DNA of 64,000 nucleotides from positions 49,190,592 through 49,254,591 of the forward strand of contig OZ023213.1 of assembly GCA_963995525.1 (NCBI GenBank), given 5' to 3'. Below the pieces are notes generated by a model. That model made no database searches. It was not told the origin of the DNA and worked only from the letters and a program-made list of their open reading frames with translations. The stretch is from Escarpia spicata (Eukaryota > Annelida > Polychaeta > Sabellida > Siboglinidae). Of this stretch, positions 25,301 through 53,143 are shown piece by piece (within the stretch, counting starts at the first letter, position 1; each line of letters begins with the position of its first letter). Position numbers and translations under genes: made by a program.

Positions 25301-28300
25301 TATTTTTGCTAGTGTAAAATACTGTTGCTGGGTTAATCATTGTCAGTGTGGAGTACATTTAATTTATTTACATGTATTTGTAAATGAACGTTTTGTGTGT
25401 GAGTGCAATGATATTAGATATTTAAATGCCGCCATTTCCTATCAATGCAGTCTGTTTTGTATGTCCTATTGAGACAGACGATTAGCATAAACATCACAGT
25501 TTGTCTTACATTGTGTCGTTGGTGTTGTTTCAGAAATGGCAGGACATCATAAAAGAGGTGACATTCCTAAGACTGTTGAAGCACCGCAACACAATAGAAT
25601 ACAAGGGGTGTTACCTTCGTGAACACACGGCATGGGTGAGTGTCACTGCACACAAACACACGGTATGATAGAGTGCAGGGAGTGAACACACGGCATGGGT
25701 GAGTATCACTGCGCACAAACACACGGTATGATAGAGTGCAGGGAGTGAACACACGGCATGGGTGAGTATCACTGCGCACAAACACACGGTATGATAGAGT
25801 GCAGGGAGTGAACACACGGCATGGGTGAGTGTCACTGCGCACAAACACACAGTATGATAGAGTGCAGGGAGTGAACACACGGCATGGGTGAGTGTCACTG
25901 CGCACAAAAACACGGTATGATAGAGTACAGGGAGTGAACACAAGGCATGGGTGAGTGTCACTGCACATAAACACACAGTATGATAGAGTACAGGGAGTGA
26001 ACACACGGCATGGGTGAGTGTCACTGACTCACTGCACATAAACACACGGTATGATAGAGTGCAGGGAGTGAACACACGGCATGGGTGAGTGTCACTGCGC
26101 ACAAACACACAGTATGATAGAGTGCAGGGAGTGAACACACGGCATGGGTGAGTGTCACTGCGCACAAAAACACGGTATGATAGAGTACAGGGAGTGAACA
26201 CAAGGCATGGGTGAGTGTCACTGCACATAAACACACAGTATGATAGAGTACAGGGAGTGAACACACGGCATGGGTGAGTGTCACTGACCCACTGCACACA
26301 AACACATGACACTGCTATCCTTGAATTATGTAAAAATACTAAGGTTTTCTGGGCTCACCATAAACCCACATTTTATTTAGTCATTTCGTGATTGATTGTT
26401 CTTAGCAGACTTATTTCCAGACCAAGTTGCCAAAAGGTGTTGTTTATTTAACCAAACTTATTGATAGACCCAAAGACTGAAATGGTTGTCATGGGGCTGA
26501 GCTTTCACTAGGCATTGATGTTGCCTGTGGCCAGGTATTATTGTCCCATGTAAACTGTAAGTTGCCGTTACCCATCGTGCAATACAACTGACTGGCCACT
26601 GCTTCAAAATCTGGAAGAATTGTTTGATTATGTAGAACCAGTCCGACGTCTCGCCAACATTTAAAAAAATTGACTTTGAGCATTTACAGAGAAAAATCTC
26701 ATGACACCGTATCAGGTGACAAATTGGAATAAAAGTAACGGGAGCTGAGGTAAGGTGTATAAAGTGACCGTAAAGACAACAAACATTGGCCGTTAGAGGA
26801 GCTGAGGTAAGGTGTATAAAGTGACCGTAAAGACAACAAACATTGGCCGTTAGAGGAGCTGAGGTAAGGTGTATAAAGTGACCGTAAAGACAACAAACAT
26901 TGGCCGTTAGAGGAGCTGAGGTAAGGTGTATAAAGTGACCGTAAAGACAACAAACATTGGCCGTTAGAGGAGCTGAGGTAAGGTGTATAAAGTGACCGTA
27001 AAGACAACAAACATTGGCCGTTAGTAAGGTGTATAAAGTGACCGTAAAGACAACAAACATTGGCCGTTAGAGGAGCTGAGGTAAGGTGTATAAAGTGACC
27101 GTAAAGACAACAAACATTGGCCGTTAGAGGAGCTGTTTGGTTTGTTCTTTTTAGTATTGCTTTATTTGTGTTCTTTAATTGTTGCTTTGCCTTTGTAGCT
27201 GGTGATGGAATATTGCATCGGTTCTGCTTCTGACCTCATTGAAGGTAACTGCATTTTATGTAGAGGCCAGGGTATTAGCTCTGCCTCTGGCCTCATTGAA
27301 GGTAACTGCATTTTATGTAGAGGCCAGGGTATTAGCTCTGCCTCTGGCCTCATTGAAGGTAACTGCATTTTATGTAGAGGCCAGGGTATTAGCTCTGCCT
27401 CTGGACTCAATGAAGGTAACTGCATTTTTATATAGAGGCCAGGGTATTAGCTCTGCCTCTGGCCTCATTGAAGGTAACTGCATTTTTATATAGAGGCCAG
27501 GGTATTAGCTCTGCCTCTGGCCTCATTGAAGGTAACTGCATTTTTATATAGAGGCCAGGGTATTAGCTCTGCCTCTGGCCTCATTGAAGGAAACTGCATT
27601 TTTATTTAGAGGCCAGGGTATTAGCTCTGCCACTGGCCTCATTGAAGGTAACTACATTTTTATATAGAGGCCAAGGTATTAGCTCTGCCTCTGACCTCAT
27701 TGAAGGTAACTGCATTTTTATATAGAGGCCAGGGTATTAGCTCTGCCTCTGACCTCATTGAAGGTAACTGCATGTTTATATAGAGGCCAGGGTATTGGCA
27801 AATAATGTTTTATGTGGTGGCCATTTTCAAAATCCATAATGTCCACTAAACATGCTTATGGGCAAATATAGGTTTTCTGATAGTTTAGTAATATAAAGAA
27901 TTGTGAAGAGGGAAAATTTTAATCTTATAATATTAAGATTGTATTAATTAACAAGAACAAGAACAAGAAAGTTTTATTTAGACCCCAATTACAATATGTG
28001 TATAATATGAAATTAACGTAACATGAACAGGCATATATATACAAATGCAGTGTAATTTCAAATTAGATGGGGTCTGTGACTCCTATTAAGACAATAACAG
28101 TCGCTCTCATAGGAGCCACAGTAATAATTTGTTTCAATTCAATTTTACCGAAGGAAGTGCAAATGCAAAAGTAAAAGTGCAGGAAAAGAAAAGAAACCGA
28201 GATTACTTGATTACATATATGCATGTATTGGAGTATTAAAGGTATGTTAAAATAAACAAATACTAGTTGTCAATAGTACACTTCAATTTACTTGATATGT

Positions 28301-53143: not shown

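Follow-up and report, generated by a model that had tools for sequence, protein, structure and literature searches.

Tandem arrays that repeat splice junctions in a TAO kinase gene and other genes of the tubeworm Escarpia spicata

The stretch of 64,000 nucleotides analysed here (the window: contig OZ023213.1 of the Escarpia spicata assembly GCA_963995525.1, positions 49,190,592 to 49,254,591) carries a TAO kinase gene (TAOK) in which several minisatellites repeat exon-intron junctions of the gene itself. Tandem duplications of exon-intron boundaries have been named "mirages" in amphioxus (PMC3087553, PMC3902484), so that the statement of the preliminary description of this DNA that no named process gives such a pattern does not hold. 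The tubeworm arrays are a real, recurring genome feature and a taxonomically distant case of this named kind, and in other genes of the same genome they also span junctions more often than expected by chance. The features of the gene that bear on the argument are as follows.

22222..53143, plus strand: TAO kinase gene, 18 coding exons, 910 amino acids, spliced frame open throughout
25534..25635, plus strand: exon 3, ending ..REHTAW|gtgagt
25619..26306, plus strand: exon 3 donor mirage (tandem repeat finder TRF), 63-bp unit, 11 copies
26741..27135, plus strand: 57-bp array within intron 3, spanning no junction
27199..27244, plus strand: exon 4, ending ..SASDLIE|gtaact
27223..27796, plus strand: exon 4 donor mirage (TRF), 57/58-bp unit, 10 copies
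33607..33741, plus strand: 34-bp array which, with a diverged unit, extends across the exon 6 acceptor
43779..45487, plus strand: 19-bp array, 85 copies, with diverged units that continue to the exon 12 acceptor
48784..48996, plus strand: exon 16, ending ..EEMMQQQT|gtaagg
48974..50227, plus strand: exon 16 donor mirage (TRF), 105-bp unit, 12 copies
50902..51029, plus strand: exon 17 acceptor mirage (TRF), 39-bp unit, 3.3 copies
51211..51599, plus strand: 45-bp array after exon 17, starting 1 base past the donor boundary
51953..52327, plus strand: 51-bp array in intron 17 (TRF)
52785..52891, plus strand: diverged units of the 51-bp family just before the exon 18 acceptor, aligned to 52883

Exon 6, taken alone, finds the TAO2 and TAO3 kinase structures as its best matches (E ~1e-28). 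Over residues 300-910, the predicted protein is 91% identical to its counterpart in Lamellibrachia satsuma and 92% identical to that in Ridgeia piscesae, and the remainder of the 120 matches listed, of 2657, are at 63% identity or less. This identity places the host among the vestimentiferan tubeworms, and an amphioxus host was rejected on that ground. Protein comparison shows that the exon joins are consistent with the models from tubeworm relatives, and in two related tubeworms the TAOK protein models have no insert at the array-bearing joins. The 30-nt microexon 10 (39546-39575) is included in the Lamellibrachia model and missing from that of Ridgeia.

Three of the mirages are at donors. 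Each unit of the exon 3 array consists of 17 bp of exon, the donor and intron sequence, with GT in 11/11 units; a four-unit block is duplicated within the array, and the unit itself shows an inner half-unit similarity (30/33 bp) that we read as an older, diverged doublet. In the exon 16 array, the exon part is at least 23 bp long, GT is found in 12/12 units, and an exon-like ATCGAGG is kept at the far end. The exon 4 units include 22 bp of exon and have GT in 9 of 10 cases. The claim that every unit contains the exon end and the donor is confirmed, with the exception of one exon 4 unit that has lost its GT. At 27223-27460, the exon 4 array opens with three units of 57 bp that read in frame without a stop; the later units, of 57/58 bp, include a stop.

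The array before exon 17 does repeat its acceptor, as had been reported: two decoy acceptors accompany the authentic one, and the similarity continues only weakly into the exon itself (P 0.05). The array after exon 17 was correctly said to begin at the donor, starting as it does 1 base past the boundary; the donor is not repeated, and the units have neither a working donor nor similarity to the exon (P 0.94). The intron 17 donor is of the GC-AG type (AAG|GCAAGT, 51209-51216), the array starting at the second intron base.

A uniform probe test of all 34 junctions singled out the same sites: the crossing copies beat all 200 shuffles at donors 3, 4 and 16 and at acceptor 17, whereas arrays merely abut the other junctions named in the preliminary description. 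Weaker leads came from the probes for donor 17 (equalled by 1 of 200 shuffles) and for acceptors 2 and 18 (4 of 200 each). Among 442 comparisons (34 junctions with 13 array units), the top five all pair a junction with its own adjoining array. The match of donor 2 to the intron 3 array (14 bp, mostly donor consensus) is weak and is one of those 442 comparisons.

Three more acceptors are reached by diverged units. At exons 6 and 18, where acceptors had been described as lying at array ends or in diverged units, the unit at 33714-33741 is equalled by 2/500 shuffles and the units at 52785-52883 by 0/500. The exon 12 acceptor, absent from the preliminary description, is reached by units at 45398-45487 (0/500 shuffles). 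The broader proposition that all near-exon arrays are decayed mirages was rejected: no bridging units were detected at the four sites checked, namely between acceptor 4 and the array in intron 3 (P 0.20), between acceptor 5 and the array in intron 4 (0.84) and at the arrays that follow donor 11 (0.17) and donor 13 (0.72). The 57-bp array in intron 3 repeats GAG|GTAAGG, which of all array units scored comes closest to a donor (p 0.01, 300 shuffles).

TRF finds 17 arrays in the gene, 13 of them with at least 3 copies. Five of the 17 are within 2 bp of a junction, compared with means of 0.59-1.45 under random placement (P from 0/5000 to 47/5000), and 11 are within 100 bp, compared with 3.4-4.6 (0/2000 to 4/5000); the spread reflects which arrays are included and how much exon overlap is permitted. 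The junction itself is overlapped by 4 arrays, a count reached in 192/5000 trials at the weakest random-placement setting, so that contacts between arrays and junctions would indeed arise rarely by chance, as initially stated, the effect being milder than had been implied. Counted by junctions, 4/34 are strictly spanned, against 0.48-1.09 expected from random points with a one-sided array edge (P 0.0014-0.023).

The same question was extended to other genes of the genome assembly (1.06 Gb, 1097 contigs), at loci chosen by the coordinates of protein-kinase and myosin-head matches, with the repeats not viewed. Partial kinase matches provided 20 loci of 10 kb (L009-L028), and two more batches (L029-L034 and L035-L049) consisted mainly of places with several matches close together; L001-L008, with complete or repeated kinase matches, were left out of the count. 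From 70 matches in 41 loci, 121 exon ends were obtained and 84 junctions were called, at least one in 34 of the loci. Mirages are present at 8 of these 84 junctions, 4 donors and 4 acceptors.

A myosin gene (L030) has two donor mirages, one at ..NPIME|GTATGA (52 bp x21) and one at ..NMTR|GTCAGT (20 bp x35), and a second myosin gene (L031) has one at an acceptor. Among the kinase genes, the 52-bp unit in L038 (x8) carries the catalytic loop ..GVIHRDLKPE|GTAGG; the arrays in L037, L041 and L043 cross an acceptor and take in 32, 15 and 30 bases of the exon that follows; and L040 has a donor mirage of 2.1 copies, perhaps caught at an early stage. The exons in L040 and L041 are similar, and the mirage is at the donor in the former and at the acceptor in the latter, suggesting separate births. 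Arrays in L035 (myosin) and L045 (kinase) end 7 and 29 bp upstream of acceptors and are possibly decayed acceptor mirages.

If units were founded uniformly, 1.42-1.79 of the 84 junctions would be expected to have a mirage (P 1.2e-4 and 5.4e-4). A random-point control, in which the observed count is matched to each overhang limit, gives 8 against 1.97 (36/50000) and 7 against 1.42 (18/50000) and, with the narrowest limit, 4 against 0.96 (759/50000; P 0.015). An excess beyond the original gene, the absence of which had been named as refuting the idea, is therefore found (8/84 against 1.4-2.0 expected). Mirages aside, array density is 0.37/kb in the near-exon set and 0.43/kb in the 10-kb set; density thus being flat near exons, the excess is specific to junctions. 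All told, 12/118 junctions in TAOK and the survey have a mirage, against about 2-3 expected, and the balance of 7 donors and 5 acceptors speaks against a donor-only cause.

This total counts against an account without bias, in which tandem duplications occur uniformly and those straddling a junction are tolerated like purely intronic ones. Such an account does predict some spanning arrays, 1.4-2.0 in the survey and 0.5-1.1 in TAOK, and it agrees with the first 20 survey junctions, which gave none; we consider it unlikely. Several points weigh against our main reading, given below. TAOK alone is moderately significant and was chosen for its striking look. In the survey, the first 10-kb kinase loci gave 0/20 junctions with a mirage and the later loci 8/64, and L035-L049, the source of 5 of the 8 mirages, were requested after those in L030 had been found, by match coordinates alone. 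Moreover, 37 of the 121 exon ends were discarded for lack of an acceptable splice site, the splice-site matrix was built from only 17 introns, some calls are weak, and the L031 acceptor (TTAAAG) is the weakest among the eight. The use of the exon-proximal splice sites, too, is a prediction.

The direction of copying can be read from the units. Their exon parts are conserved coding sequence, which indicates that the exon is the source of the repeat. In the sampled genes the arrays overhang the exon by 10-44 bases, and in TAOK by 17-23 bases at exons 3, 4 and 16 and by 3 bases at exon 17. Exon states that the inner units have lost survive at the edges of two arrays, in the final two units after exon 4 and in the last partial unit after exon 16. 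Short direct repeats, one copy exonic and one intronic, are found at exon 16 (ATCGAGG) and in L037 (GCCATCCT); these could equally be partial end copies.

We conclude that these arrays are probably mirage minisatellites that were born as exon-anchored tandem duplications, tolerated and then amplified. Birth would be a short tandem duplication that begins or ends within the outermost bases of an exon, its opposite end lying in the intron. Such a duplication would be tolerated since the splice-site copy nearest to the exon would still set the same exon, the extra copies being spliced out as part of the intron. Slippage and unequal exchange would then amplify and homogenise the copies, leaving the edge units nearest to the exon sequence.

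The extra splice sites are largely intact. GT is kept in 29/30 decoy donors of the exon 3, 4 and 16 arrays, and in the other genes the intact decoys number 20/20, 23/34, 26/30, 2/2, 6/7, 2/2, 4/4 and 4/5, the lowest fraction (23/34) being that of one L030 array. Retention of GT or AG in most decoys is what one would expect if selection kept redundant splice sites, whether to buffer or regulate splicing or to serve as decoys for U1, and some decoys would keep the reading frame open: the first three decoy donors of exon 4 would add 19, 38 or 57 amino acids in frame, and with the two decoy acceptors of exon 17 the in-frame addition would be 13 or 26. Several observations oppose selection of this kind. 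If the donor is skipped, a stop follows after 33 nt at exon 3 and after 36 nt at exon 16; 6/11 exon 16 decoys have A for G at position -1 and score lower; and the TRF period is a multiple of 3 in 5/12 units, where 4 would be expected. In the three TAOK donor arrays, the exon and donor columns are as variable as the rest of the unit (8/80 against 20/157, P 0.67) and so give no sign of selection on the decoys. Conservation of the decoy sites is thus not supported, the earlier suggestion that selection favours redundant splice sites finds no support in these arrays, and we regard this explanation as very improbable.

A further alternative places the bias in survival. Duplications would again arise uniformly, and an array that includes a conserved exon unit would persist longer because that unit cannot decay and can reseed the array by conversion or renewed expansion. 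The exon copies being conserved coding sequence is in line with this possibility, as are the diverged units adjoining acceptors 6, 12 and 18 and the older 30/33-bp doublet within the exon 3 unit. On the other side, changes not found in the exon are common to the inner units after exon 4 and likewise to those after exon 16, which argues against recent overwriting by the exon copy, and the 2.1-copy array in L040 fits birth at the junction itself. Such survival is, in our estimate, rather unlikely, less so than chance with uniform tolerance.

An origin of the arrays in the assembly deserves mention because long tandem arrays are difficult to assemble and one amphioxus mirage was misassembled in the draft genome (PMC3087553). 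The tubeworm units, however, bear private variants as well as variants shared by blocks of units, and the same anatomy recurs in several genes on several large contigs; in amphioxus, moreover, haplotypes with 6 and 3 units were found and the products of reverse transcription PCR were normal (PMC3087553). An artefact is extremely improbable.

We tentatively favour biased birth at exon edges as the cause of the junction excess, a reading that has something short of an even chance; longer survival of arrays anchored in a conserved exon carries less weight, and the rest falls on sampling or tolerance alone. The proposal that junction DNA acts as a birth site for tandem repeats gains from the excess and from the exon-to-array direction, and the birth role itself would still be the interpretive step. 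The more general form, which we put forward with greater caution, is that exon-intron borders could be birth hotspots of minisatellites in animals as unrelated as cephalochordates and annelids, at several times the intronic rate, via some property that the two edges of an exon share; breakage coupled to transcription or splicing, or microhomology of the exon end with the intron, would be examples. If so, the mirages, carried by about 1 in 10 of the examined tubeworm junctions, would be a continuing source of splice-site redundancy and, possibly, of intron change.

The closest known system remains the amphioxus mirages, the mechanism of which was called unclear and which were reported or suggested to leave splicing undisturbed (PMC3087553, PMC3902484). 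The genes concerned are Adh3 and the globins BflGb6 and BflGb9, with PGBD5 and troponin C also cited. The tubeworm arrays likewise span the exon-intron boundary (4 TAOK and 8 survey junctions) and, as in amphioxus, where both the 5' and the 3' intron boundaries can be duplicated, they occur at both sides of the intron. In both groups, many but not all copies keep the splice signals. Unit lengths are 10-72 bp in Adh3 and 150-160 bp in the globins, compared with 20-105 bp in the tubeworm, whose 100- and 105-bp periods sit between the two published ranges. The hosts of all cases found in print are cephalochordates, whereas the present one is a vestimentiferan annelid; no report of a mirage in an annelid was found among the literature matches listed. 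The tubeworm adds four strict cases in a single gene and a measured excess over chance, while amphioxus has reports of allelic and somatic instability and of normal splicing, the tubeworm arrays being read from one assembly. The new knowledge is the measured junction excess, set against a density that is flat elsewhere; together they suggest that birth or survival is biased at exon edges.

Other systems share some of these traits. In genes of human segmental duplications, minisatellites change copy number at exon-intron borders, as in the tubeworm; half of those repeats are within coding exons, and the ones located at boundaries have been associated with new introns and with transcripts that vary (PMC2812944), whereas the tubeworm copies are intronic and the predicted proteins of relatives have no insert. 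Intron gain by tandem duplication, in which the duplicated segments bring ready donors or acceptors, was proposed as a follow-on of mirages (PMC3087553); the intron positions in the tubeworm were read as they stand. First-intron minisatellites of earthworm metallothionein genes are also annelid and intronic, and no exon or splice-site sequence is described in their units in the accessible part of the report (PMC12783039). The Caenorhabditis elegans minisatellite CeRep25B is over-represented near regions of alternative splicing and is described as one shared repeat family with regulatory motifs rather than a set of units derived from each gene's own junction (PMC4039745). In the accessible text of a huntingtin paper (PMC2206037), the words mirage and minisatellite do not appear.

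With an annelid case in hand, the origin of these repeats, which the papers found describe from amphioxus only, becomes testable with ordinary genome, long-read and RNA data. With up to dozens of decoy sites per exon, most of them intact, the arrays are a ready-made experiment on the choice that the spliceosome makes when several sites are identical; they are also a trap for gene annotation.

The rest of the window contains mobile-element remnants, another gene and further arrays. Intron 4 of TAOK includes, on the minus strand at 28391-31638, broken retroelement-like frames with a reverse transcriptase-like motif at ~29512, and an inverted repeat at ~30200-30310 lies within this region. An RVT_1 fragment is found at ~16360-16575 (plus strand, Pfam E 7.8e-8). 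Four copies of an element that looks by eye like a short interspersed element (SINE), at 25006, 34921 and 36138 on the plus strand and 57357 on the minus strand, share GCTTCCCAGAGAAGTCGAGATGGTGT, one of them with 1 mismatch; the pattern had no match in the genome and viral contig collections searched. Pfam searches in six frames of 5200-11300, 13400-22200 and 53200-64000 recognised only the RVT_1 and DnaJ domains, with no coding domain at 5200-11300, between large minisatellites, and Rfam and tRNA searches gave no match. The DnaJ-domain gene (57075-59514, minus strand), the one gene recognised in the window besides TAOK, has an intronic 21-bp array off the junction, about 350 bp from the acceptor. 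The four large minisatellites, at 4-1691, 2071-3100, 3322-5217 and 11317-13437, for which these Pfam searches gave no exon to tie them to, have units of 38-56 bp in 27-40 copies.
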